A stretch of DNA of 35,706 nucleotides from Candidatus Methylumidiphilus alinenensis (GTDB taxonomy: Bacteria; Pseudomonadota; Gammaproteobacteria; Methylococcales; Methylococcaceae), in assembly GCA_003242955.1 (NCBI GenBank), contig QJPH01000412.1:1-35706 (forward strand). The letters are read 5' to 3'. Every line of letters begins with the position of its first letter. The first letter of the stretch is position 1. Made by a program: the position numbers and the translations under genes. Shown piece by piece: positions 6,095 through 33,097 of this stretch. Under the pieces are notes generated by a model that saw nothing but the letters and a program-made list of their open reading frames with translations, made no database searches and was not told where the DNA came from.

Positions 6095-6354
6095 TGATGT
6101 TAAGTACATTGCCAATGAGGTAAGCGTTCACCCCTCCCCCGCTTTTTCCCGGCAGCGCGGCCATCTTGGCCTCCATTTCAGCGGGCGAGACGCCCACGCT
6201 CCCAGGGGGGGGTGAACGCTTACCCAATGAGAGCAAGAAGGCCGGAATAAGCCTGCCCAAGTGGGCGTTTCTGGCAAAGCAAGCCTCACGGTTCAGAATC
6301 TTATGCCGGAAATGCCCGTGTACGGGCGTTTCCGGCCTATAGTGCGTAACATCA
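6095..6354. mobile_element. Palindromic element, family B (TGATGTTA.. ends), interrupted by a nested MITE
   Basis: Left end TGATGTTAAGTAC (6095-6107) and right end GTGCGTAACATCA (6342-6354) are inverted repeats agreeing at 11 of 13 positions. Inside are two hairpins, one around 6241-6276 and a near-perfect one at 6305-6336 (GCCGGAAA...TTTCCGGC). The MITE at 6120-6223 sits inside; removing it and one target copy leaves about 148 bp. A second copy of about 130 bp lies at 22719-22852. The 6030-6391 gap otherwise holds no gene I can support. Confidence 0.5.
6120..6223 (+). mobile_element. IS66-type MITE, copy 1
   Basis: A 104-bp non-coding element with ends GTAAGCGTTCACC and GGTGAACGCTTAC. It is flanked by a perfect 8-bp duplication, CCAATGAG at 6112-6119 and 6224-6231. 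Ends starting GTAAGCG and 8-bp target duplications are typical of IS66-family elements (family knowledge). There is no transposase, so it would need help in trans. The interior has the palindromic GGCCATCTTGGCC core shared with the other copies. Confidence 0.75.
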
Positions 6355-12105: not shown

Positions 12106-14022
12106 TTAAGGCATGATCAATGGAAAGTGAGAATAATACAACTGATTAGTGTCCAATACACCATTCATGTTCGTATCTACCCCAAAATACAAATCATAGC
12201 TACCACTTGCTAAGCCAGTGGTATTGAATAGTGCCAAACCGGAAATATCAGCCAGCGGACCTTGGTAGGCTGGTTTCGCTCCGTTTATGCTAGTGCCAAT
12301 ATCCACCCATTGATTAGGGTAGATATAAGCAAACCAATGTCCCCATGGCGTGTAGGCTAGAAACCACCAGTCTCCACTTTTGCCAATGTTGCTACCGGAG
12401 GTCAGTTGCACTGTTACCGATGAACCGTTCAGACTGATGCTGGGGTTGGTCACCGTTGACATGAAACTATTGTCAACTAAAGCAACGCCGCGCAAGACCT
12501 GGCCATATTGGGCAGTTTGCAATGTATCAAAACTGATATTGGTAGGCGCAGTAACCGCACCGACGACATCCGTTATCTTTACCAGCTTGTTAGGGTCGGC
12601 TCCTTGGTCCCCGGAAGTGCTGACAGTCGATGTAGTGGCGAATAAGGTCACAGTACCGTCGAGATTGTCCCGACCAATGAGGTTACGCAAACCATCAGTG
12701 GCGGTAGTGTAGCTACCGCTAACACCTAAGGCTGACCCTGAAACCGTATAATTGACACCTAAATTAAGACCTGCTTGTAAGGTATAAACATTGTGCCACA
12801 AATGGTCGGTGTCACTTAAAACCCACTTCTCCAACCCGGCGTTGGCACTCTTGCCGGCATTGGCTAACACGCCATCGCCTTCATCTGCAACGTACAAGGT
12901 GTGATCGTTGGCAAACCAGATGCCAAATGGGAAGTTGGTCGGTGTTCCCGAAGCCAAGACTGACGGTAAACCTGGCAATATCGTGATTGGGGTGGACGAA
13001 CTATTAGTCACGAGACTATCCAGACTGCCAGTGGCACCCACTTGATAAACCGTATCAATGCCATTACCGCCGCTGCCTTTCGTCACATAAAGGGTCTTGT
13101 TGAAGACGGTCATTCCTCGGAAATTGTCGTCTTTTCCGGTTTTATCGGCTGCTGCCGCATAGGGCGAACCAGTCAACGGGTTAATCTGAGTTACAGAAAA
13201 ACCAAATTGGTAACCAGTGGCGTTTCCATTGGTGCCTTGTGGTTGACCGATTACTTTAGTCAGAGGGCTGTTGTTCCCAGCGGCAATGGTTTGAACGCCG
13301 GTGTTTCCGCTCAACGTCGCCAAAGTCGCGTTGGTCGGACCAGTACCAGAATTTCCTGCATTACCCACCATAAAATAGGTATTAGTAGTTGCATCCAGAA
13401 TGGCGGCACGTCCATTGTTGCCACTATAACCATCGGTTGAAGTGACGGTAAGGCTTCCATCTGGATTAATTTGAGCAACGTTACGATAAGTCGGTGCCGC
13501 AATGCCCACAGTTGGATTAGTCGGATCAATCACGTCCGGCGTATTACTATTGGAAATATCTATTTGACCTTGGGTCGTACCGTAACCCATCAAGGTTAAT
13601 GATTTCCCATCAGTTGACAGGTTGACCGCCAATTCCGATTTTGAACTAAAGCTAGTTACAAATTTATAACCTTGCCTTGCAGCAATATCTGACAAGTTGA
13701 TCGTTTGTTGCAGATTGCCGTATTCACTATCAAGAAAGCTGATAAAAACAGGTGAAGTAATGCCAAAGCTACCGTCTGTTTTGTTGTTATTCCAAACGTT
13801 TAGATAGCTGCCATCGGCTGTAGCTGTGACCGTGCTTCCCGCAGTCTTGCCAGCCAATATTGTGCTGCCAGCTACGATAGGCGTTGCCGTGCCTTGATAA
13901 AAACTACTGGTTACAATTAGTTTATCCTGGCTAATTGCCATAACCATGCTTGGTAAACTTATCAATAAAGAACCCGTCAATAACGTGCTTATGACTAGTT
14001 TTGAATTTAATTTGTTACTCAT
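12106..14022 (-). CDS. Large secreted protein of unknown family, beta-propeller-like
   Basis: The frame opens at 14058, but the Met at 14022 (M-S-N-K-L-N-S-K-L) directly precedes a typical Sec signal peptide ending near V-M-A and has GAAG upstream, so I chose it (638 aa). The mature part is rich in Thr, Ser, Asn and Gly, with blocks such as D-D-N-F-R-G-M-T-V-F-N-K-T-L-Y-V-T-K-G, F-P-F-G-I-W-F-A-N-D-H-T-L-Y-V-A-D-E-G-D-G and D-Q-G-A-D-P-N-K-L. These spaced F-A-x-x-x-T-L-Y-V-A-D-type segments suggest propeller blades, by inference. The C-terminus (F-G-V-D-T-N-M-N-G-V-L-D) looks like a calcium-binding or lipase-associated type loop. No membrane anchor or sorting tail is obvious. Function unknown. 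Confidence 0.75.
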   Translation of the reverse strand: MSNKLNSKLVISTLLTGSLLISLPSMVMAISQDKLIVTSSFYQGTATPIVAGSTILAGKTAGSTVTATADGSYLNVWNNNKTDGSFGITSPVFISFLDSEYGNLQQTINLSDIAARQGYKFVTSFSSKSELAVNLSTDGKSLTLMGYGTTQGQIDISNSNTPDVIDPTNPTVGIAAPTYRNVAQINPDGSLTVTSTDGYSGNNGRAAILDATTNTYFMVGNAGNSGTGPTNATLATLSGNTGVQTIAAGNNSPLTKVIGQPQGTNGNATGYQFGFSVTQINPLTGSPYAAAADKTGKDDNFRGMTVFNKTLYVTKGSGGNGIDTVYQVGATGSLDSLVTNSSSTPITILPGLPSVLASGTPTNFPFGIWFANDHTLYVADEGDGVLANAGKSANAGLEKWVLSDTDHLWHNVYTLQAGLNLGVNYTVSGSALGVSGSYTTATDGLRNLIGRDNLDGTVTLFATTSTVSTSGDQGADPNKLVKITDVVGAVTAPTNISFDTLQTAQYGQVLRGVALVDNSFMSTVTNPSISLNGSSVTVQLTSGSNIGKSGDWWFLAYTPWGHWFAYIYPNQWVDIGTSINGAKPAYQGPLADISGLALFNTTGLASGSYDLYFGVDTNMNGVLDTNQLYYSHFPLIMP

Positions 14023-14120
14023 AACTTCTAATGCCCCGCCCAGATTTAAAACGAGCATTTTTAGCAGAAAAATATTACAATTTAACGTCTATTAAAAAAA
14101 TTGGTATTTATTGATCCAAT

Positions 14121-14294: not shown

Positions 14295-16343
14295 TTATTC
14301 CGCAAACAACGCCTCGATAAACTTCCTCGCATCAAAATCTTGCAAATCCTCAATCGTTTCACCCACGCCGATATAACGGATGGGGATGCCGAATTGCTTG
14401 GCAAGGGCGAACACCACGCCGCCTTTGGCGGTTCCGTCCAGTTTGGTGACGGCAAGGCCGGTCAGTCCCACGGCCTCGTTAAACTGCTTGGCCTGACTCA
14501 GGGCATTTTGCCCAGTGCCGCCGTCCAGCACCAACAGCACTTCGTGGGGCGCGGCGGGGTCCAGTTTTGCCATGATGCGCTTGATCTTGGTCAATTCTTC
14601 CATCAGGTTGGACTTGGTGTGTAAGCGGCCTGCGGTGTCGGCAATCAGCACGTCCACATTGCGTGACTTCGCAGCTTGAATGCCATCGAAGATCACCGAG
14701 GCGGAATCCGCGCCGGAGCCTTGGGAGACGACATGAATCTGGTTGCGATCCCCCCAAGCCTGCAACTGTTCGACGGCGGCGGCACGGAACGTGTCGCCGG
14801 CGGCGAGCATAACGCTGTGGCCTTGGTTTTTCAGCCGGTTGGCGAGTTTGCCAATGGTGGTGGTTTTGCCGACCCCGTTGACACCGACGACCAGAATCAC
14901 GAAAGGTTTCTTGTCGGGCGTGATGACTAGCGGTTGACTTACCGGTTCGATGAGTTCGTACAGGTGTTCGCGCAAGCGGGCGGTCAGCGCGTCAAGATCG
15001 GCTAGTTGGCTACGCTCCAAGCTGGAGGTGAGGTCGGCGATAATTTCCGAAGTTGCCGCCACACCAATGTCGGCCATAAGCAATTGCGCCTCGATGTCCT
15101 CCAACAAATCGCCATCAATGGTTTTTTTGCCCAAGGCCAAGTTGGCGAGGAACCCCGTCAATCCGCTACGCGTTTTGCCCAAGCCAGATTTAAGGCGTCC
15201 AAAGAGGTTTTCGTGTACAGGAAGAATTGGGGCTTCAATGCGTGGAAGCAACTCTGCTTCCACGGGCGGGGCAACGACTGTCGGCGGAATCAGCTCGGAA
15301 GGGATTTCCGGCAACTCCCGCCGAACTAAGGGTTCCTCGCGCAATGCCTTGCCTTTGTCAGGCAAGGTTTCAGCTAAGGGGACGCGTAAGAAAAAGACGA
15401 TGTGTAGCAGGTTTAACAGCAACAAGGCCGCAAAAACATTATGTGCCAACGCGATGGGAATCGGCAGCCGCAGTAGGACTGCGGCGACTCCAAACACAAT
15501 TTGCACTAGCAGCAAGAAATTCAGCAACAGTGCCGGTCTGCTCAGGCGGAGGGCATGACGATTGGATGTCAGGTTAAGCGCCAACAGGGTCAGTAGCAGG
15601 AAAGTGAACACAGCACCTAGCCGGTGCGTCCAATGGATGGCCGCCCGCTCTGTAAACGGCAAACTACCCGCCACTGAATGGATGGAATCCGCTGACAGGC
15701 TGAAAGCACCGATATAATCAACGGGTGGGTTGTATGTATTTAAGCAAGTCGGGAAATCCTGGCAGGTCAAGCCGGCGTGGTTGGTGCTGGTCCATCCGCC
15801 TAGGGCAATTTGTAGCAGCAGCGCCAACAGCCCGGCTCTGGCAAGCCAGCGCAACCCCGAATCAACATAGGGGCGGTCATTCGCACTGAGGCTTTGGTTG
15901 AGGCTCAGCCAATAAAGGACACCGAGGGTGGCCAAACCGCCCAATAGATGCGCCGTAGCCACCACGGGAACAGATAACAAGCCTCCGCCCCACTTCCCTA
16001 AAGCGGCAAGCAAAGCGACCAGTGTCAATGCCACTAGGGACAACAAAACTGACGATAATCGTCTTTCCTGCACACGGAATGACAGTGCAAAAAGCCCAAG
16101 CACAAGGACTCCCAATACGCCGGCCAAATAACGGCCTGCCATTTTCAAGCCGTCCAGGTTGGTCGGTGTGGAAACCTCGCCAAATTGGGATAGTGGCTTG
16201 GGAGAGTCTTCGATGATGGTTGCGCCAAGGCAACCCGGCCATTGGGGGCAGCCAAGTCCCGCATCGGAAATGCGGACATAGGCACCTAAAACCGTCACGC
16301 AGAGAGTCAGGAATACGCAAAGCAGGGCTAGTTTTCTAAACAT
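14295..16343 (-). CDS. CtaA/Cox15 heme A synthase-like domain fused to FtsY (SRP receptor GTPase)
   Basis: One uninterrupted 682-codon frame encodes two normally separate proteins. Residues 1-320 are CtaA/Cox15-like: about eight hydrophobic segments, cysteine pairs C32/C38 (G-C-P-Q-W-P-G-C) and C194/C200, and histidines H132, H240 (W-T-H-R) and H301 (A-H-N). The family E-x-x-H-R motif reads K67-M-A-G70-R, losing Glu and His. Residues 321-379 are a Pro/Glu-rich linker. Residues 380-682 are a full FtsY NG domain: N-domain helices, G487-V-N-G-V-G-K-T-T, D-T-F-R-A-A-A-V-E-Q, D569-T-A-G-R, T633-K-L-D-G. There is no Met between about residue 320 and residue 423, so separate FtsY translation would need a GTG/TTG start. 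Oxidase-assembly genes lie upstream; a ctaB/cyoE gene, common after ctaA, is absent. A terminator follows. Assembly error is the main alternative. Confidence 0.9.
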   Translation of the reverse strand: MFRKLALLCVFLTLCVTVLGAYVRISDAGLGCPQWPGCLGATIIEDSPKPLSQFGEVSTPTNLDGLKMAGRYLAGVLGVLVLGLFALSFRVQERRLSSVLLSLVALTLVALLAALGKWGGGLLSVPVVATAHLLGGLATLGVLYWLSLNQSLSANDRPYVDSGLRWLARAGLLALLLQIALGGWTSTNHAGLTCQDFPTCLNTYNPPVDYIGAFSLSADSIHSVAGSLPFTERAAIHWTHRLGAVFTFLLLTLLALNLTSNRHALRLSRPALLLNFLLLVQIVFGVAAVLLRLPIPIALAHNVFAALLLLNLLHIVFFLRVPLAETLPDKGKALREEPLVRRELPEIPSELIPPTVVAPPVEAELLPRIEAPILPVHENLFGRLKSGLGKTRSGLTGFLANLALGKKTIDGDLLEDIEAQLLMADIGVAATSEIIADLTSSLERSQLADLDALTARLREHLYELIEPVSQPLVITPDKKPFVILVVGVNGVGKTTTIGKLANRLKNQGHSVMLAAGDTFRAAAVEQLQAWGDRNQIHVVSQGSGADSASVIFDGIQAAKSRNVDVLIADTAGRLHTKSNLMEELTKIKRIMAKLDPAAPHEVLLVLDGGTGQNALSQAKQFNEAVGLTGLAVTKLDGTAKGGVVFALAKQFGIPIRYIGVGETIEDLQDFDARKFIEALFAE
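15241..15264. repeat. Palindrome inside the coding sequence of the CtaA-FtsY linker
   Basis: CGTGGAAGCA and TGCTTCCACG pair perfectly over 10 bp around a four-base loop. It encodes residues about 361-368 of the fusion protein, in the linker between the two domains. It looks like a REP-type palindrome accommodated in frame. Confidence 0.55.
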
Positions 16344-16398: not shown

Positions 16399-16554
16399 GT
16401 AGGGGCGAATTCATTCGCCTTTGGGCGGTTGGTAAGCGTTCACTCCCCCTGCCTTTTCCTGGGAGCGCGGCCATCTTGGCTGCAAATTCTGGCGGGCGGG
16501 ATGCCCGTGCTTCCGGTGGGGAGTGAACGCTTACGGCGGCTGAGCCACCCCTAC
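16399..16554. mobile_element. Palindromic element, family C (GTAGGGG..CCCCTAC), interrupted by MITE copy 2
   Basis: GTAGGGG at 16399-16405 and CCCCTAC at 16548-16554 are exact inverted ends. Taking out the MITE at 16432-16534 and one 8-bp target copy leaves 45 bp, close to the 48 bp of the intact relative at 23941-23988. It shares GGGGCGAATTCATTCGCC with the copy at 17225. It lies in the 229-base gap between ctaA-ftsY and the SCO-like gene; nothing else is seen in that gap. Confidence 0.55.
16432..16534 (+). mobile_element. IS66-type MITE, copy 2
   Basis: A 103-bp element with ends GTAAGCGTTCAC and GTGAACGCTTAC. Flanks are GGCGGTTG (16424-16431) and GGCGGCTG (16535-16542), an 8-bp duplication with one change. 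Orientation is as copies 1 and 3. It sits between the SCO-like gene and the fusion gene, within a same-strand transcription unit. Confidence 0.72.
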
Positions 16555-16572
16555 ACACACTGAATCATGCCT

Positions 16573-17184
16573 TCAGCCGATCTGTGAGATTCTTAACAGA
16601 CGCTGCAAATCCTTTAATATGCCGTAAGGATCGAAACCGGGTTCGTACCACATCATCGCATTGGAAAATGGGTCCAGCAGCAATACCGTACCCTCGGCCA
16701 AAGGTCTGCCCACCGAATCTTGCAGACGTTGGCGCAAGGCATCGGACATGCCAGTTATTAGCAAGGCCGGGTTAAGGTTGGCGATTTCCCGTGCGGAATC
16801 CGGCGATGCCTGGCCGGGGAACAGCAGCAAGCGTCGGACGCGAGGAATGTCTTTGCTCATCAATAAGCGGACCTTTTCAGTCTTTTGCAAAGTTTCCTTG
16901 CAAATATCGGCACAAACGGGGCCAGCGACGATTTGCACCATAACCCAATGGCCCTTGATCTCAGGCAGGTTTTCCACTGTCGTTACGGGTGCCTGAAAAA
17001 ACAGATCATAATCAATCGACTGGGCTGGAGAAATTAGATGGCCATAATTGGTCTTTTGCCTGTCCTTGACCAGTTGGGGATTCTTCGCCAAATACCAGGC
17101 AAAGCCAAAAGGAATGATACAGATTAGCGCAATCGAGATAATCATCATACGATTGCGCCATGCTTTAATATTGGTTCCGGTCAC
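16573..17184 (-). CDS. Membrane-anchored SCO-like cytochrome oxidase assembly protein
   Basis: The frame opens with TTG at 17211. GTG at 17184, ten bases after AAAGG, is a better start and gives 203 aa; the ATG pair at 17148 is another option. One N-terminal transmembrane helix (I-I-S-I-A-L-I-C-I-I-P-F-G-F-A-W-Y-L) precedes a periplasmic domain with a C-A-D-I-C motif (C-x3-C spacing, as in SCO copper chaperones). The conserved SCO metal-binding His is not evident. In pseudomonads a protein of this kind lies between surf1 and ctaA (family knowledge), exactly this position. The likely role is delivery or redox handling during aa3 oxidase assembly. Two MITEs in the same orientation bracket the gene. 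Confidence 0.72.
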   Translation of the reverse strand: MTGTNIKAWRNRMMIISIALICIIPFGFAWYLAKNPQLVKDRQKTNYGHLISPAQSIDYDLFFQAPVTTVENLPEIKGHWVMVQIVAGPVCADICKETLQKTEKVRLLMSKDIPRVRRLLLFPGQASPDSAREIANLNPALLITGMSDALRQRLQDSVGRPLAEGTVLLLDPFSNAMMWYEPGFDPYGILKDLQRLLRISQIG

Positions 17185-17224
17185 TTTTTGGGTACCTTTT
17201 ATGTGAATCAATCATTAATTTTTC

Positions 17225-17297: not shown

Positions 17298-17397
17298 GTA
17301 AGCGTTCACTCCCCGCGCTTTTTCCTGGGAGTGCGGCCATCTTGGCCGCCATTTCAGCGGACAAGATGCCCGCGTCCCCAAGGGGGTGAACGCTTAC
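17298..17397 (+). mobile_element. IS66-type MITE, copy 3
   Basis: A 100-bp element with ends GTAAGCGTTCAC and GTGAACGCTTAC. Flanks GAATCATC (17290-17297) and GAATCAAA (17398-17405) agree at six of eight positions, a decayed duplication. The right flank contains the surf1 stop codon (17401-17403), so it inserted exactly at the gene's end. Confidence 0.68.
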
Positions 17398-17400
17398 GAA

Positions 17401-18117
17401 TCAAATCTTTGGCTTAAACCCATACCAGACATACAAAATCAACACTGCTAGCGCGAAAGAAAACCATTGCAGGGCATATCCTCGGCTTGTCTCTGGCCGC
17501 AAGCTTGCAATCTTCCAGTCCCTAGCATATCCATAGTCCGCGTCGGGTGGCAATAATACTTGATATGGCAACAATCGATAACCAAGACGTTCGGACAATC
17601 GTTCTATATTAGCTACCTGTACCATAGAAGGCCAACCGGATGAAGGGTTTTCCGCCCCTTTGAGCTTGAACCCAACACTAGGCAGCTTGTCGATGACACC
17701 CACAAAATGGGCCTTGGCCTGTTTGATGGCAAGGTCAGGAAAACGGGTCCGGTCTTTGCCTACGGGCAACCAACCCCGGTTGACTAACACGGCTGCTTGT
17801 ATTCCTGCAATGCGCAACGGTGTCAACACTCGATACCCCGGTTGTTGATTGAACAGTTGGTTGTCAAGCAAAAACTGATGCTCCAAGTCGAACTCACCAG
17901 TCAGTTCTATGCGGCGATAACGGTTTGCTTCCACCGCCCAAGATTCTGAGCCGGAAGCAAGAACGGGTTCGCCTGACTGCCGTTCACGTTGCTCCATCAT
18001 TGCCTCTTTTTCACCGGCCCTATGCAATTGCCAAAATCCCAAGGACACAAAAAGAGGCATCAAAACAGCCACGGCCAAAGAAGCCACCCATCCTGGCCTA
18101 AACAGATAATTTTTCAC
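17401..18117 (-). CDS. SURF1 family cytochrome c oxidase assembly protein
   Basis: A 238-aa inner-membrane protein needed for heme a insertion into aa3-type oxidase (family knowledge). Two transmembrane helices frame a periplasmic domain. The first ends in S-L-G-F-W-Q-L-H-R-A-G-E-K, the SURF1 signature; the last is A-L-Q-W-F-S-F-A-L-A-V-L-I-L-Y-V-W-Y-G. Between them are L-L-D-N-Q, V-L-V-N-R-G-W-L-P and the G-x-R-V-L-T-P-like block. It heads the block surf1, SCO-like, ctaA-ftsY and is divergent from a DUF2909 gene, a layout also known in Pseudomonas. The oxidase subunit genes are not in the window. Confidence 0.92.
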   Translation of the reverse strand: MKNYLFRPGWVASLAVAVLMPLFVSLGFWQLHRAGEKEAMMEQRERQSGEPVLASGSESWAVEANRYRRIELTGEFDLEHQFLLDNQLFNQQPGYRVLTPLRIAGIQAAVLVNRGWLPVGKDRTRFPDLAIKQAKAHFVGVIDKLPSVGFKLKGAENPSSGWPSMVQVANIERLSERLGYRLLPYQVLLPPDADYGYARDWKIASLRPETSRGYALQWFSFALAVLILYVWYGFKPKI

Positions 18118-22718: not shown

Positions 22719-22852
22719 TAACTGATGTTAAGCACAGACCACGATGCCATTGTCGGCAATGGGTTGCCGACCTGCGGCGATTTGTTTTAGCGTGTCAAGG
22801 CTTGCCTTGACAGGCAAAGCGAGCTTTGCCACTCCATGCGTAACATCAGCCA
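22719..22852. mobile_element. Palindromic element, family B, second copy
   Basis: Left end TAACTGATGTTAAGCA (from 22719) and right end TGCGTAACATCAG (22837-22849) are inverted repeats with one mismatch. Inside are hairpins GTCAAGGCTTGCCTTGAC (22797-22814 region) and GGCAAAGCGAGCTTTGCC (22813-22830). The right end contains the hemE stop codon. It fills the gap between hemE and the Rpn-type gene. Confidence 0.5.
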
Positions 22853-23916
22853 TTACAGTGAAACGCCGGACTAAACTCATGCACAGCATCGACCATCGCG
22901 CCGACATGTTCGGGGTGTATGTCCGGGTGTACTCCGTGCCCCAAATTAAACACATGACCAACCCCTTGGCCAAAATCGGTCAATATCTTTTTTACTTCGC
23001 CTCGGATGGATTCCGGTGACGCGTATAAGGCCACCGGGTCCAGGTTGCCTTGTAGCGCCACCTTGCCTCCCACGCGCCTGCGCGCCTCCGAAATCGGTGT
23101 TTGCCAATCCAGGCCAAGGGCATTGTAACCAGTTGCAGCCATGGCTTCCAACCACAAGCCACCACCCTTAGTGAAGAGTATTGCCGGTATGACCTGGCCG
23201 TTTTGCTTGAGTTTAAGTTGATTTAATATGCGCTCGGCGTAGTGGAGCGAAAAATCTTGGTATTGCCCTGTGGTCAATGAACCGCCCCAAGTATCGAACA
23301 GCATGACCGCGTTGACCCCCGCGGCGATTTGTGCGTTCAGGTAGGCGGCAACGGCATCGGCCAACTTACCCAACAATACATGCAGGAGGTCGGGCTGGTC
23401 ATAGAGCATGGCTTTAAGCTTGCGGAAGTCCCTGCTGCTGCCGCCTTCTACCATGTAGGTTGCAAGCGTCCAAGGGCTGCCGGAAAAGCCGATCAGCGGC
23501 ACCTTGCCTTGCAGCTCCCGTTGAATCAGGCGAACCGCATCGGTGACGTAGCACAACTTCTCTTCTGGATCGGGTACGATAAGTGCGTTGATATCCTCAT
23601 CGGTTCGTATGGGTCGGCTGAAACGTGGGCCTTCCCCTTCGATAAAATGCAGACCCAAGCCCATGGCATCGGGTATGGTCAAAATATCGGAAAATAGGAT
23701 GGCGGCATCTAGGCGGAAACGATCCAATGGCTGTAGAGTGACTTCGCAAGCGAGTTCCGGGTTGGTGCATAGATTCATGAAACTCCCGGCCTTTTCGCGT
23801 ACCCGGCGGTATTCGGGAAGATAGCGTCCGGCCTGGCGCATCATCCATACGGGGGTGTAACCCACGGGTTTCCGCAACAGGGCGCGGATAAAACAATCGT
23901 TTTTAAGTGCTGTCAT
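22846..23916 (-). CDS. hemE: Uroporphyrinogen decarboxylase
   Basis: Removes the four acetate carboxyls of uroporphyrinogen III to give coproporphyrinogen III in heme synthesis; cytosolic, cofactor-free. At 356 aa it has the family length. The substrate-binding signature [12 protein letters not shown] is near residue 25. Other blocks are [32 protein letters not shown] and G-H-G-V-H-P-D-I. The C-terminus (H-E-F-S) is followed by seven residues and a stop codon that lies inside a mobile palindrome. In many gammaproteobacteria hemE is near the aroKB/pil region, consistent with mrcA two genes away. Confidence 0.97.
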
Positions 23917-27192: not shown

Positions 27193-27302
27193 ACAGGAAC
27201 ACGGTTAAATCCCGTGAAAGTCTTATCGACAGGCCTAGACTGTAATCGCTAAACTTGCGATTACCGCCTTTGATACAGGGGAAAACGCTAAGGATCTTCG
27301 AC

Positions 27303-28364
27303 ATGATATTTTTAAGGCGTAAAAAGCCGCTCTTGCTGGGCATCGATATCAGCACCGCCGCTGTAAAGTTGCTTGAGCTGAGCAAAATTGATTCCCGCTA
27401 TCGCGTAGAAAGCTTTGGGGTGGTCCCCTTGCCTCAAGATGCGGTTGTGGAAAAAACCATAGTCAACGTGGAAGCGATTGGCAACTGCGTCAAGGCCGTG
27501 GTCGCCCAGTCTGGCACCAAATTGAAGCATGTGGCCGTGGCGGTGGCTGCTTCCGCTGTCATACCTAAGGTAATCAGCTTACCGAACAACCTTAGTGATG
27601 ATGAGATGGAAGCTCAAATCGAGCTTGAAGCCGACCAATTCATACCCTATCCATTGGATGAAGTGAGCTTGGACTTCGAAATACAGGGCATCAATGAAAA
27701 AAACTCGGATTTGTTGGATGTTTTGGTGGTCGCTTCACGAAAGGAAAATGTTGAAGACCGTGTCGCTGCCATGGAATTGGCGGGGCTTAAGACAATAATC
27801 GTCGATATTGAGTCCTATGCGCTGGAAAACGCATTCCCGCTGATCGCCGACAGGTTGCTTGAAGGCGGCGCACAAATAACAGTTGCCATCGCCGATATTG
27901 GCGCTACGATGACAACGCTTAATGTGCTGCACAACTTCCGCCATGTTTATACGCGTGAACAGGCATTCGGCGGAAAGCAGCTTACGGAGGAAATTCAACG
28001 CCGCTATGGCCTGTCCTATGAGGAAGCCGGCCTGGCCAAGAAAGTAGGCGGCTTGCCGGACAATTACCTTCCTGAGGTGCTAGACCCTTTCAAGCAAGCA
28101 TTGGCTCAGCAAGTCGGTCGTGCCTTGCAATTTTTCCTTTCATCCTCCTCCCAAAAGGGCATCGATCAGTTAGTGCTTGCCGGTGGCTGCGCTTCGATTG
28201 CCGGGATCGAACATTTTGTCCAACAAACCCTTAATATCCCGACAATTATCGCCAACCCGTTCGCCAACATGTCGCTTTCGGGCCGGGTAAAGCCTATTAA
28301 TGTAAGCAATGATTCATCGGCAATGTTGACGGCCTGCGGTTTGGCGTTACGGAGTTTCGACTGA
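27303..28364 (+). CDS. pilM: Type IV pilus assembly protein PilM
   Basis: Cytoplasmic actin-like ATPase fold protein that binds the N-terminus of PilN and links the inner-membrane alignment complex to the motor. The frame is open from 27255, but the ATG at 27303 has AAGGAT upstream and gives the family start (L-G-I-D-I-S-T-A-A-V-K-L-L-E-L), 353 aa. Blocks include P-L-D-E-V-S-L-D-F-E, A-D-I-G-A-T-M-T-T-L-N-V and L-A-G-G-C-A-S-I-A-G. Its stop codon overlaps the pilN start (ATGA), so translation is coupled. Confidence 0.95.
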   Translation: MIFLRRKKPLLLGIDISTAAVKLLELSKIDSRYRVESFGVVPLPQDAVVEKTIVNVEAIGNCVKAVVAQSGTKLKHVAVAVAASAVIPKVISLPNNLSDDEMEAQIELEADQFIPYPLDEVSLDFEIQGINEKNSDLLDVLVVASRKENVEDRVAAMELAGLKTIIVDIESYALENAFPLIADRLLEGGAQITVAIADIGATMTTLNVLHNFRHVYTREQAFGGKQLTEEIQRRYGLSYEEAGLAKKVGGLPDNYLPEVLDPFKQALAQQVGRALQFFLSSSSQKGIDQLVLAGGCASIAGIEHFVQQTLNIPTIIANPFANMSLSGRVKPINVSNDSSAMLTACGLALRSFD

Positions 28365-28948
28365 TGGCACACCTAAATCTTCTCCCTTGGCGAGCGGAAC
28401 TTCGCAGGCAACAGCAAAAGGACTTTATAACCGTGACAGCTTTCGGGGTATTGATTACCTTGTTGTTGTTGCTTCTATTGCATCTCGATATCAATTCGAG
28501 GATCGATTATCAAAGTGAGCGCAACAAATATATCCAGTCTGAAATAGCCTCGTTGGATAGTAAGATCAAGGAAATCCAGGATCTCGAAATCAAGAGAAAA
28601 CGCCTTCTCGCCAAAATGGAAGTAATTCAGGAACTTCAGGCAAGCCGACCGGAAATTGTCCATCTTTTTGACGAGCTTGGGCGCACAATTCCCGAAGGGC
28701 TTTATTTAACAGATTTGAGTCAATCAGATAAAAACCTAATCGTCAACGGTATGGCTCAATCCAATGCGCGGATTTCGGCTTACATGCGCAACCTAGAGTC
28801 CTCTGCTTGGCTGAAGGATCCCGTACTCAATATTATCGAGACTAAGGTCGAAAGCAAAGACAACAGGAAAGAGCGTCAGAGCAGGTTTACGCTTCAGATT
28901 AAGCAAGCAACTGAAAAGACAGAAGACAAAAGAAAAGGCGCATCATGA
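28364..28948 (+). CDS. pilN: Type IV pilus inner-membrane protein PilN
   Basis: A 194-aa bitopic protein. The conserved cytoplasmic tail I-N-L-L-P-W-R appears here as L-N-L-L-P-W-R-A-E-L-R at the N-terminus and binds PilM. One transmembrane helix (about residues 25-42) leads to a periplasmic coiled coil and ferredoxin-like domain (G-L-Y-L-T-D-L, V-N-G-M-A-Q-S-N). It pairs with PilO. The overlap with pilM is ATGA and with pilO another ATGA. Confidence 0.94.
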   Translation: MAHLNLLPWRAELRRQQQKDFITVTAFGVLITLLLLLLLHLDINSRIDYQSERNKYIQSEIASLDSKIKEIQDLEIKRKRLLAKMEVIQELQASRPEIVHLFDELGRTIPEGLYLTDLSQSDKNLIVNGMAQSNARISAYMRNLESSAWLKDPVLNIIETKVESKDNRKERQSRFTLQIKQATEKTEDKRKGAS

Positions 28949-29580
28949 ATCTGTCCAACCTTGATTTAGACATCAACAAAATAGGCTCATGGCCAACTCC
29001 GATAAAAATAGTCGTCGTGCTAGTGCTATGCCTTCTTATTGTAGGATTGGCCTACTATTTAGATACCCAAGACCAACTGTCCGAGTTGCAAAAGGAATCT
29101 GACCAAGAACATGAATTGAAAACTGTTTTCGAAACCAAGCAAAAAAAAGCAGTCAACCTTGAGGAGTACCGGCAACAACTTGATGAAATAGAAAAATCCT
29201 TTGGCGATCTATTGCGGCAATTGCCCGATAAAACTCAAGTTCCCGATTTATTGGTTGATGTCTCCCAAACGGGGTTGGCAAGCGGGTTAGAGTTTGAGCT
29301 TTTCAAGCCGGACAATGAAACAAAAAAAGATTTTTACGCTGAACTTCCTATAAATATCAGAGTGCTAGGTTCTTATATGGAATTTGGAACTTTCATTAGT
29401 GGCTTGGCGGCCTTGCCTCGGATTGTGACAGTTCATAACATTAAAATCACCTCCAGAAAGGATCAGTCTGCAGGAATGAAAAACAAGCCCTTGGTCATGG
29501 AAGTGCTAGTCAAAACCTACCGTTATCTGGAAGACGGGGGTGTAACTGCAAACCCAGACAAGAAAAGCAAGAAGCAGTAA
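28945..29580 (+). CDS. pilO: Type IV pilus inner-membrane protein PilO
   Basis: A 211-aa partner of PilN in the alignment complex between the inner-membrane platform and the secretin. A short cytoplasmic segment is followed by one transmembrane helix (I-V-V-V-L-V-L-C-L-L-I-V-G-L-A-Y-Y), a coiled coil, and a periplasmic domain with L-P-D-K-T-Q-V-P-D-L-L and the typical G-S-Y-M-E-F-G-T-F-I-S-G-L-A-A-L-P-R-I-V block. Overlaps pilN by four bases and pilP by one base. Confidence 0.94.
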   Translation: MNLSNLDLDINKIGSWPTPIKIVVVLVLCLLIVGLAYYLDTQDQLSELQKESDQEHELKTVFETKQKKAVNLEEYRQQLDEIEKSFGDLLRQLPDKTQVPDLLVDVSQTGLASGLEFELFKPDNETKKDFYAELPINIRVLGSYMEFGTFISGLAALPRIVTVHNIKITSRKDQSAGMKNKPLVMEVLVKTYRYLEDGGVTANPDKKSKKQ

Positions 29581-30152
29581 TGATGCATAAACATTTGAGA
29601 AAACCTCCCAATCAGACTTATCATAGGCGTTTAGCCATAGCCCTCATTGCGGCAACGCTTTCGGCTTGCGGGGACAATAATTTCAGCGACCTGAGAGACT
29701 GGGTGACTAGCGTCAAAAAAAGACAAAAAGGCACAGTTGAACCTCTGCCTGAAATTAAAACCGTGGAGCCATTTTTGTTCAAACCCGATGATATACGGGA
29801 TCCATTCATGCAGAATGATAAAATCGAAATGCCCGAGGAATCCAAGGGAGACAATGGCGTGCGCCCAGACACTACACGCGCCAGGGAAGAATTGGAGACT
29901 TATGAACTCGATTCACTGCGCATGGTTGGAACGATCAACCAAGAAGGCCAATTATGGGGATTGGTCAGGGCGAGTGACGGAACCATACACCGTGTCCGTG
30001 TCGGCAATCACATGGGCCGCAATTACGGTAAAATCATTCGCATCAAAGAAAGTCAGATAGAACTGCTTGAGATCATACCCGAGAGTACCGGGGGATGGCG
30101 CGAGCGCAAAGCAGCCCTTGAGTTGACTGAAGCGAATAGTGTAAAAAAATGA
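29580..30152 (+). CDS. pilP: Type IV pilus lipoprotein PilP
   Basis: A 190-aa lipoprotein bridging PilN/PilO to PilQ in the periplasm. The signal peptide ends in a lipobox, L-S-A-C, with the lipidated Cys near residue 31. A disordered linker carries D-D-I-R-D-P-F, and the C-terminal domain has L-D-S-L-R-M-V-G-T-I, L-W-G-L-V, H-R-V-R-V-G-N-H-M-G-R-N-Y-G-K-I. Two adjacent ATGs are available; the first overlaps the pilO stop. The 3' end overlaps pilQ by four bases. Confidence 0.94.
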   Translation: MMHKHLRKPPNQTYHRRLAIALIAATLSACGDNNFSDLRDWVTSVKKRQKGTVEPLPEIKTVEPFLFKPDDIRDPFMQNDKIEMPEESKGDNGVRPDTTRAREELETYELDSLRMVGTINQEGQLWGLVRASDGTIHRVRVGNHMGRNYGKIIRIKESQIELLEIIPESTGGWRERKAALELTEANSVKK

Positions 30153-32425
30153 AAAAAACTTTGGAATTGATTTGCTTGGGAGAATATCTGCCCAAAGGCA
30201 TAAGGCACTCCATCTGGGTGTTGCTGTTATTGACTAGGTTTTCCCTCGCCAACGCTGATCCGCTAGAACTGCTTTCACTTGATTTCACGACCCTGCCCGG
30301 TGACAGCTTGCAAATCCAATTGTCCCTAAGCGGGCCTGCATTTTCACCTCGTGTGTTCCATACTGACAACCCCGCGCGCATTGCCTTGGACCTTCCTGGG
30401 GTATCCAATAAATTGGGGAAAAAATTATTCCCTGTTGGTTCAGGAGGGGTACAGAGCCTTCAAGCGATTGCGGTGGCAGACCGTACCCGCGTTGTGGTTA
30501 ATCTTTTAAAATCGGTCCCTTTTAACACAAGAGTTGAAGGGAACAATATCTTTGTAACATTGCAGAAGGGCAAGACTTGGTCCACAACAGAACCTACAAG
30601 GCAAATTTTAACCGCCGCCCACTCCCCGGTCAGGCCAGGATCTGACGCATACCCTTTGGGCCAATCCATCCTTAATCTTGATTTTCGTCGTGGTGAGAAA
30701 GGCGAGGGGAGAATCCTGGTTACGCTCGCCAATCCAACGATGATAGCGGACACTCGCGAAGAGGGCCGTAAAGTGGTCGCCTACTTTCCGTCTGCGAGAC
30801 TACCTTCAAATTTGGCGCGGAGGTTGGATGTCATGGACTTCGCCACCCCCGTTCAGTACATTGATGCAACGGAAGACAACAATGGAGCCAAGCTGACTAT
30901 CACTCCCTCGACCGAGGACTTTGAATACTCCTCGTACCAGTCGGAAAATTTATTGACTATTGAATTCCGTCCCTTGACTACCGTGGAGAAGGAAGAGGCC
31001 AAGAAGAAAACGTTCGCTTATGGCGGTCAAAAATTATCGCTCAATTTCCAAGATATTCCGGTTCGGTCAGTGTTGCAAATTCTTGCCGATTTCACCAAAG
31101 AGCAATTTCCTCCGAATGGTTTGAACCTGGTTGCCAGCGACACCGTCGGGGGCAATGTAACCCTTAGACTCAACGATGTGCCTTGGGACCAAGCTTTGGC
31201 TTTGGTATTGAAGTCGAAGAATTTGGGTAAGCGTCAAGAGGGCAACATCATTCAAATCTTACCTTTGGATGAACTGAATAAGCAGATCAAGGAAGAATTG
31301 GAACAGCAAAAGGTGGTTGAAGAACTCGAACCACTTAAGACCGAGATCATCCAAGTCAACTACACCAACGCCGAAGACATCAAGAAAGTATTGGTTGGCA
31401 CAATGGCAAGGACCAACGTGGTGACCGGGCAACAGGGCGCGATGGCCGCCCCAACCGTCGCCTCAACGACGAGTCTGGATGTCAGCCAGTCGATACTCTC
31501 CACACGCGGCAATGTCACGGTAGATGCGAGGACCAATCAAATCATTGTCAAAGACACCACCAAAAACCTAGAAAGAATACGGGACTTAGTCAAGCAACTC
31601 GATATTCCGATTCGCCAAGTATTGATTGAAGCACGCGTCGTGATTGCCAGCAACAGCTTTGCCCGTGAGTTAGGCAGCCGTTTCTCGGTGAACCCGGCGG
31701 CCTCGTCCGCTAATGTCCAGACTAATTACGGTACAGTGCCTCTGCCCAATAACGCGACGCCAACGGTTCCGACTTCAACCACCAATGGTGTGACTTCGTC
31801 CAATTCTCTTTTTACCACTGCCAGTGCATTGTCGGATCTTGGCGCGGCGGGAGCGATAGCCGGTACCCCTGCAACGCTAGGCGTGACCGTGCTGAAAGTC
31901 GGCGACTATCTGCTCAACTTGGAACTTTCCGCTGCGCAAGCGGAGGGCAGGAGTGAAATCATATCCAACCCAAGGCTGATGACAGCCGACCAGACTAAGG
32001 CTATCATCAAGCAGGGCAACCAAATCCCCGTATCGTCGGGTAGCACGGCCACAACCGTGGCTAGTGTTTCATACAAGGATGTCGTATTGGAGTTGGATGT
32101 CACCCCCCACATCACTCCAAACGATAATATCAGAATGGAATTGATGATAAAGAAAGACAACCCAAATGGCGTTGTCATTAACGGAAACCCCGAAATCGAC
32201 ACCCGCGAGATCAACACCACGGTGCAAGTCACCAATGGTGACACTGTGGTTCTAGGCGGTGTTTATGACAACACCAAAATCACTAGCACCAACAAAGTGC
32301 CTTTTTTCGGCGACTTGCCAGGCATTGGCTTTATGTTTCGCTATAACGCCATACAGGACAACAAATCTGAGTTGTTGATTTTCATCACCCCCAAGGTTAT
32401 TAAGCAGAATCTAGGGCAACGTTGA
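30149..32425 (+). CDS. pilQ: Type IV pilus secretin PilQ
   Basis: Outer-membrane ring through which the pilus passes. A signal peptide with a long N-region ends near residue 36 (S-L-A-N-A). Two AMIN domains (about 40-140 and 165-280) bind peptidoglycan. Then come the STN/N0 domain (L-S-L-N-F-Q-D-I-P-V-R-S-V-L-Q-I), an N1-type KH-like domain (I-I-Q-V-N-Y-T-N-A-E-D-I-K-K-V-L) and the secretin core starting V-L-I-E-A-R-V-V-I-A and ending V-P-F-F-G-D-L-P-G-I-G. 758 aa is within the PilQ range. A Ser/Thr/Asn/Pro-rich stretch between R-F-S-V-N-P and L-G-V-T-V-L is long and low-complexity, plausibly in the gate region. Last of the five pil genes; aroK overlaps or follows. Confidence 0.96.
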   Translation: MKKTLELICLGEYLPKGIRHSIWVLLLLTRFSLANADPLELLSLDFTTLPGDSLQIQLSLSGPAFSPRVFHTDNPARIALDLPGVSNKLGKKLFPVGSGGVQSLQAIAVADRTRVVVNLLKSVPFNTRVEGNNIFVTLQKGKTWSTTEPTRQILTAAHSPVRPGSDAYPLGQSILNLDFRRGEKGEGRILVTLANPTMIADTREEGRKVVAYFPSARLPSNLARRLDVMDFATPVQYIDATEDNNGAKLTITPSTEDFEYSSYQSENLLTIEFRPLTTVEKEEAKKKTFAYGGQKLSLNFQDIPVRSVLQILADFTKEQFPPNGLNLVASDTVGGNVTLRLNDVPWDQALALVLKSKNLGKRQEGNIIQILPLDELNKQIKEELEQQKVVEELEPLKTEIIQVNYTNAEDIKKVLVGTMARTNVVTGQQGAMAAPTVASTTSLDVSQSILSTRGNVTVDARTNQIIVKDTTKNLERIRDLVKQLDIPIRQVLIEARVVIASNSFARELGSRFSVNPAASSANVQTNYGTVPLPNNATPTVPTSTTNGVTSSNSLFTTASALSDLGAAGAIAGTPATLGVTVLKVGDYLLNLELSAAQAEGRSEIISNPRLMTADQTKAIIKQGNQIPVSSGSTATTVASVSYKDVVLELDVTPHITPNDNIRMELMIKKDNPNGVVINGNPEIDTREINTTVQVTNGDTVVLGGVYDNTKITSTNKVPFFGDLPGIGFMFRYNAIQDNKSELLIFITPKVIKQNLGQR

Positions 32426-32999: not shown

Positions 33000-33097
33000 G
33001 TAAGCGTTCCCCCCCTGGGAGCGTGGGCGTCTCGTCCGCTGAAATGGCGGCCAAGATGGCCGCACTCCCAGGAAAAAGCGGGGGAGTGAACGCTTAC
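33000..33097 (-). mobile_element. IS66-type MITE, copy 4 (opposite orientation)
   Basis: A 98-bp element with ends GTAAGCGTTCCC and GTGAACGCTTAC; its interior is the reverse complement of copies 1-3. No target duplication is left (flanks TATGGTTG and GTCTTGGA). It lies between aroK and aroB, so it may weaken or end read-through from the pil operon. The remaining 150 bases to aroB may hold an aroB promoter, but none stands out. Confidence 0.65.

Follow-up and report, generated by a model that had tools for sequence, protein, structure and literature searches.

What is a heme A synthase doing at the front end of an SRP receptor? The question is raised by one gene in a 35,706-nucleotide stretch of Candidatus Methylumidiphilus alinenensis DNA ("the window" in what follows is this entire stretch), in which a single 682-codon frame, opening with ATG, runs from a COX15-CtaA domain through a linker of 55 residues into a complete FtsY NG domain. 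A sequence-only reading had already proposed an in-frame fusion of CtaA/Cox15 to FtsY at 14295-16343, with a Pro/Glu-rich linker and the G1, G3 and G4 motifs. The coordinates are correct, the strand, which that reading left unstated, is the minus strand, and the fusion is borne out by Pfam, by TIGR00064 and by the motifs themselves.

The gene and its two halves

14295..16343, minus strand: CtaA::FtsY fusion gene, 682 aa, ATG start at 16343, stop at 14295-14297
15384..16343, minus strand: COX15-CtaA membrane domain, residues 1-320 (Pfam, model, Foldseek of this half alone)
16134..16145, minus strand: degenerate substrate (heme O) site K67..G70 (E57..H60 in separate orthologues)
15948..15950, minus strand: H132, present, equivalent by alignment to H123 of B. 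subtilis CtaA
15744..15764, minus strand: second cysteine pair C194/C200, extracellular loop 3 (in 106/108 complete fused proteins)
15624..15626, minus strand: H240 (= H216), predicted heme-b ligand (in 107/108 complete fused proteins, G269 doubtful)
15441..15443, minus strand: H301 (= H278), predicted heme-b ligand (in 107/108 complete fused proteins)
15219..15383, minus strand: Pro/Glu-rich linker, residues 321-375 (pLDDT block means 40-65)
14298..15218, minus strand: FtsY NG domain, residues 376-682 (Pfam, TIGR00064, Foldseek)

Both halves are readily recognized. Pfam places COX15-CtaA at residues 4-312 (3.6e-53; PF02628, 181.1 bits against 29.9), SRP54_N at 399-460 (4.8e-9) and SRP54 at 480-680 (8.4e-77), and the NCBIfam ftsY model TIGR00064 scores 361.8 bits, above its cut-off of 260.7. 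The GTPase signature is complete: G1 (GVNGVGKTT, 487), DTFRAAA (517), G3 (DTAGR, 569) and G4 (TKLDGTAKGG, 633) are present here and in every one of the 111 fused proteins aligned, with V/I and V/A variation in G1. The NG-domain stretch LFGRLKSGLGKTRSGL is presumably the counterpart of the amphipathic N1 helix.

Modeled in full with AlphaFold2 (45 rows; mean pLDDT 81.9, pTM 0.57), the protein consists of helices, a weak linker and the NG domain; its eight long helices span residues 2-28, 62-90, 95-118, 126-149, 162-187, 230-260, 262-290 and 295-319. Foldseek matches this model best to E. coli FtsY (6cvd), with a TM of 0.94 by target length and 66% identity. Modeled alone (51 rows), the CtaA half reaches pLDDT 87.0 and pTM 0.87, and at E 0.001 or better it matches just two PDB entries, each a heme A synthase: that of B. 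subtilis (6a2j; E 4.6e-8, TM 0.70/0.73), followed by that of Aquifex (8aw5; 1.0e-4).

Distribution of the fusion

The window's genome is a 6.57-Mb draft in 597 contigs, listed as 100% complete and 4.4% contaminated, and the number of contigs and the contamination are grounds for suspecting an artefact of assembly or binning. The same architecture is present in many genomes, however, including the single-contig assemblies G015 and G017 and that of M. capsulatus Texas, and the suspicion can be given practically no credence. A first search of relatives, which took in 41 genomes including the window's own, found both halves in one frame in 34, some of them assemblies of 1-8 contigs: the fusion is therefore neither a chance occurrence nor an assembly join, and the possibility that relatives all have separate genes is excluded by genomes of the order. 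As to the rest of the 41, five (families f6 and f7) have a separate CtaA, G016 has split frames and G021 yields no FtsY match.

To judge by its named relatives, the order that carries the fusion is Methylococcales. Of 311 of its genomes examined, 297 have an FtsY match; among the 256 with a listed ftsY frame, 230 frames are of fusion length (558 aa or longer), 18 are the unfused frames of f6/f7 and eight reflect edges or frameshifts (frame length serves here as a proxy for fusion, and the counts were made by hand from tables; 111 fused proteins were aligned). In a collection of named organisms, the 12 fused loci all belong to Methylococcaceae, Methylococcus (M. capsulatus Texas included) or Methylomonas. 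A class-level search of 369 genomes found, among the matches listed, both halves covered only in G000, G015 and G031, all of the window's own order; every other match listed starts at query residue 276 or later, and weak cases may exist beyond that list.

Several apparent exceptions dissolve on inspection. The frames of G016, G086 and G232 might be taken for reversals of the fusion; both halves are present in them, in different frames. The short ftsY frames of G224 and G242 run off their contigs, as do, by coordinates, those of G075, G066 and G287. The eight short frames being contig edges or split frames, no reversal of the fusion is shown. A seeming triple fusion in G017 and G018 (frames of 864 and 878 aa) is due to a PA_0111-like gene in its own overlapping frame. 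Long frames outside the order (G575, G593, G630 and G644; 615-944 aa) are ordinary FtsY proteins with an MFGF or MLGF start, lengthened by a spurious frame upstream or by an extended A domain. Likewise, G571, G665, G448 and G580 (496-526 aa) have ordinary FtsY, G448 with another start. Genome G089, listed as 100% complete, lacks an FtsY match at 1e-75, and of the CtaA copies (described below) it has the second alone; perhaps its assembly has a gap at the fused gene.

Could the halves nevertheless come apart in the cell, through internal starts or proteolysis of the linker? The linker is poorly conserved (mean 0.22) and modeled with low confidence, and in 16 of the 111 aligned proteins it contains some start codon with an SD-like site. 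Yet a linker ATG occurs in only 18 of the 111 and is accompanied by an SD-like site in just one; the window's own linker has neither an ATG nor any start codon with an SD-like site; and the frame stays joined in those 230 genomes of 256. Separate halves are, we think, very improbable.

Gene neighborhood and likely origin

16573..17211, minus strand: PA_0111-like gene, a constant upstream neighbor (NCBIfam, 30.6 against 230 bits, far below cut-off)
17401..18117, minus strand: SURF1 cytochrome oxidase assembly gene, a constant upstream neighbor (Pfam, 5.3e-40)

Where did the two halves meet? In M. capsulatus Texas, SURF1, the PA_0111-like gene, ctaA::ftsY, an ftsE-like ABC-ATPase gene, ftsX and a sigma-70 (rpoH-like) gene follow one another in one direction. 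In an unfused Cycloclasticus locus the order is cox3 - SURF1 - PA_0111-like - ctaA - ctaB (UbiA family) - aspartyl protease, the end of which meets the series rpoH-like sigma factor - ftsX - ftsE-like - ftsY head on; ctaA and ftsY also face each other at three f6/f7 loci (L042, L043 and L047). The opposed orientation in unfused loci and the one-way order in M. capsulatus point to a single inversion, which brought the ftsY-ftsE-ftsX-rpoH block up against ctaA and cost the locus its ctaB, as the simplest and likely origin. Formally the direction may instead have been fission of an older fusion, because the tree of FtsY parts (considered below) was rooted on the unfused rows.

The search for ctaD in 22 genomes gave 20 matches (17 fused genomes, 3 unfused). 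In 7 of the 17, no more than 6 kb separates ctaD from the fusion, with both on one strand of one contig, so that there FtsY sits in an oxidase gene cluster; the window's genome has its ctaD on a different contig. The sequence-only reading had remarked that no ftsE or ftsX is nearby, and indeed neither is matched among the 26 window ORFs scanned with Pfam.

The rest of the window adds the following. A 650-aa ORF downstream of the fusion (12106-14058, minus strand) has no Pfam or NCBIfam match at 0.001. More ordinary neighbors are a uroporphyrinogen decarboxylase gene (22846-23916, minus strand) and a pilM-pilN-pilO-pilP-secretin cluster (27255-32425, plus strand). A 17-base inverted repeat with arms about 70 bases apart recurs at 6120-6223, 16432-16534, 17298-17397 and 33081-33097 (7 matches with at most 2 mismatches, against 0 expected). 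It lies between genes, two copies falling inside the SURF1 - PA_0111-like - ctaA::ftsY cluster, and looks like a palindromic intergenic element. A scan of the window for promoters and terminators found sites no more numerous than in shuffles.

Substrate-site residues lost, heme-b histidines retained

In heme A synthase, according to part of PMC12808453, the substrate heme o is held at H60/H123 in the N-terminal bundle, where E57 is catalytic, and the cofactor heme b at H216/H278 in the C-terminal bundle; the residue roles are the same in the yeast enzyme, in which E166A abolishes activity (PMC13213658, in part). The window protein reads LKMAGR(Y) where E-x-x-H-R is expected: E57 and H60 are lost, a glycine occupying the place of the histidine, and the other three of the four heme histidines (H123, H216 and H278) are present.

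In the 108 complete fused proteins (frames not cut at a contig edge; G069, G199 and G224 are left out), E..H is found in 27, H123 in 73 and the first cysteine pair in 79, and 35 have neither E..H nor H123; the second cysteine pair is found in 106, and H216 and H278 in 107 each, the H216 match of G269 being doubtful since it reads HVMLA, without R. Dropping only G224, which leaves a set of 110, gives E..H 28, H123 74, second pair 108, H216 109, H278 109. (A looser count of H60, which accepted H plus the residue set after it, gave 74 and was discarded.) Separate orthologues in the named set retain E..H in 67 of 68 cases, the one that lacks it being an additional copy from Methylolobus aquaticus; the named fused proteins retain it in 2 of 12. 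Counts of C2 and H216 in the named set are biased, the scan patterns having spanned those residues; genomes outside the named collection were drawn by the search of relatives and by FtsY score.

Mapped onto a tree built from the FtsY parts (115 rows, a quick method), the observed states require 13 changes for E..H, 16 for H123 and 8 for the first cysteine pair, as against a single change for each of three others: H216, H278 and the second pair. These figures exclude edge-cut rows; with the three such rows included they become 13 for E..H, 17 for H123 and 1. H216 and H278, like the second pair, rank with the best-conserved columns of the CtaA half (0.98-0.99).

Such tenacity invites a more ambitious reading, in which heme b (at H240/H301) and the periplasmic cysteine pair alter the fold or stability of the anchor, so that protein insertion follows heme or oxygen status. 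The methanotroph SRP receptor would then be a hemoprotein, with its heme-b bundle and periplasmic disulfide an embedded sensor controlling co-translational insertion, and heme or redox status would govern insertion of, for example, oxidase and methane monooxygenase subunits through a single receptor. The disparity between single changes and 13 or 16 speaks for it, as does a degree of conservation that seems excessive for a bare anchor. Against it, the heme may be structural only, the fusion persists in G268, where both heme-b histidines and the cysteine pair are gone, and in G269, where the pair is lost and H216 doubtful, and we know of no signaling path from the anchor to the NG domain. A sensing receptor is a bold reading that we regard as unlikely.

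Decay can go further than the loss of single residues. In genus g47 (L164-L167) much of the N-terminal CtaA half is gone and the C-terminal half kept, in frames of about 565 aa. Both exceptions just named belong to genus g46: G268 (L189) keeps five hydrophobic segments and FtsY, and G269 (L188) keeps seven, also with FtsY.

Other copies of ftsY and ctaA

A second ftsY and a second ctaA were both looked for. The fusion is the only match above the FtsY cut-off in the window's genome, which accordingly has one ftsY. Other SRP54 matches are one weak partial and a 474-aa Ffh-like frame on contig C1, which we take to be Ffh by its length (and 35% identity). A separate CtaA does exist, as a 372-aa frame on contig C337: it retains E57, H123, H216 and H278 together with the first cysteine pair, its position H60 is occupied by N, and the stretch from extracellular loop 3 to H216 is free of cysteine. 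It resembles type 1.3 as that type appears in Table 1 of PMC8239418, and is assumed to be active. The same set of residues, with N at H60 and no second cysteine pair, recurs in all 21 second CtaA copies examined (L036, L049-L068). L040 (G007), L046 (G021) and L098 (Methylolobus aquaticus) are yet other separate CtaA-like copies, in which HRY is present and the E57 motif absent.

With E57 and H60 lost and a second CtaA elsewhere in the genome, the reading of the window protein as a working heme A synthase fails, at least as far as its sequence allows one to judge. What of the order at large? A search for other CtaA genes covered 106 of 110 fused genomes. In six of them no CtaA besides the fused copy was found, and in five of these the substrate site is intact; it is intact in 23 of the 100 fused genomes that have a further CtaA, so that catalysis need not be lost everywhere. 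The five intact sole copies are those of G027 and of four genomes of genus g42 (G251-G254), and since these four share a genus they amount to only two independent cases. Fisher tests were set aside, since they count related genomes as independent. In the sixth genome, G038, the fused copy is degenerate and no other CtaA turned up, but this draft is 85% complete, and its relative G032 has two. All 22 genomes tested for ctaB gave matches, the one in G027 consisting of just two pieces under the cut-off. No CtaD was matched in G251 or G254, and the case for a site kept for the sake of heme A is the weaker for it.

These observations bear on the bifunctional coupling that the sequence-only reading had entertained, in which the CtaA half makes or hands over heme A while FtsY docks ribosomes translating oxidase subunit I beside it. 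Three things speak for it: SURF1 and the PA_0111-like gene precede the fusion, ctaD is close by in the seven genomes already mentioned, and in G027 and G251-G254 the only CtaA found is a fused copy with E..H, H123, H216 and H278. But E57 and H60 are gone from the window protein, and E..H and H123 are both missing from 35 of the 108 complete fused proteins; the window's genome has its other CtaA and keeps ctaD on another contig; and G251 and G254 do without a ctaD match. As a general explanation coupling is improbable, and for the window protein it is unsupported; it is possible in those lineages whose intact fused copy is the sole CtaA found.

A probable permanent anchor for FtsY

The better of the two proposals in the sequence-only reading was the plainer one, a new anchor for FtsY. 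We put at roughly 0.77 the probability that a retired heme A synthase now serves as the eight-helix permanent membrane anchor of the cell's only FtsY, probably holding heme b as it does so. FtsY is essential in model bacteria, where it is usually described as peripherally bound. The arrangement envisaged for the fusion is as follows: 1) Both ends of the CtaA domain would face the cytoplasm, and FtsY NG would consequently hang beside the membrane on its flexible 55-residue linker. 2) The anchor would replace the A domain. Separate FtsY proteins of the relatives examined have a basic MFGF..KK-like start; this start is absent from the fusion, which suggests that the CtaA domain takes the A domain's place. 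3) SRP-ribosome complexes would be received without a cytosolic phase of FtsY, GTP-dependent docking of these complexes being the role proposed for the fusion. 4) The second CtaA would have freed the fused copy from catalysis; the N-terminal CtaA half would then have decayed repeatedly, while the anchor, held by an essential gene, stayed. 5) In the window's lineage one structural heme b would be bound and no heme A made. Heme-b binding is a prediction from conservation and fold, but a structural heme would be a modest answer to the question of why the heme-b pair outlasts the substrate site.

That FtsY would become permanently membrane-embedded had been anticipated, and the anticipation is supported: internal starts are rare in the linker, and membrane-tethered FtsY NG is functional in E. 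coli (PMC2780400 and PMC5533587, each in part), which together argue for a permanently anchored SRP receptor.

Three things follow if the anchor reading is right. A large clade that includes M. capsulatus would anchor its FtsY permanently, which bears on the need for cycling between cytosol and membrane. The family would amount to a natural experiment in enzyme retirement, run many times over: the substrate site has lost residues again and again, and the cofactor site has stayed. What, then, would SRP targeting gain from a hemoprotein that is catalytically dead? Finally, annotation may enter the fusion under FtsY or count it as one more heme A synthase, the second; each name misleads when used alone.

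Comparison with known systems

The type of protein had been thought undescribed, and this holds up: among the open-licence papers listed on heme A synthase (CtaA) with FtsY, on Methylococcus or methanotroph FtsY and on FtsY fusions, no description of a CtaA-FtsY fusion was found, and the words "fusion" and "fused" are absent from PMC7987157. It is CtaA::FtsY that seems to be new; CtaA-CtaB fusions and one-helix FtsY anchors are already known. Natural CtaA-CtaB fusions are included in Table 1 of PMC8239418; there the partner is the preceding enzyme of the same pathway, whereas in CtaA::FtsY it is an unrelated GTPase.

Set beside a bacterial FtsY such as that of E. coli (NG domain, 6cvd), the fusion is alike in its NG fold, its GTPase motifs, its single copy and its TIGR00064 score above cut-off. 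It differs from separate FtsY in that an A domain with its MFGF..KK start is replaced by an eight-helix, enzyme-derived domain. Set beside heme A synthase CtaA/Cox15 (6a2j; the type for comparison is class B, or type 1.1, in Table 1 of PMC8239418), it shares the fold, both cysteine pairs and the C-terminal heme-b histidines, and differs in its C-terminal GTPase and, in the window's lineage, in the loss of E57 and H60.

Permanent tethering as such is not peculiar to this order. An engineered FtsY-membrane fusion reportedly goes back to Zelazny in 1997. Gram-positives and archaea have FtsY with a transmembrane helix, and engineered fusions include 3L-Pf3 (as described in parts of PMC2780400 and PMC5533587): these proteins are likewise permanently tethered and functional, but on an anchor that is one helix or artificial, while that of CtaA::FtsY is natural, polytopic and derived from a heme enzyme. 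In the eukaryotic SRP receptor, too, the GTPase of the alpha/beta pair is held at the membrane by an integral membrane partner; there, however, as part of PMC2780400 has it, the receptor is made of two subunits and the anchor is itself a GTPase.
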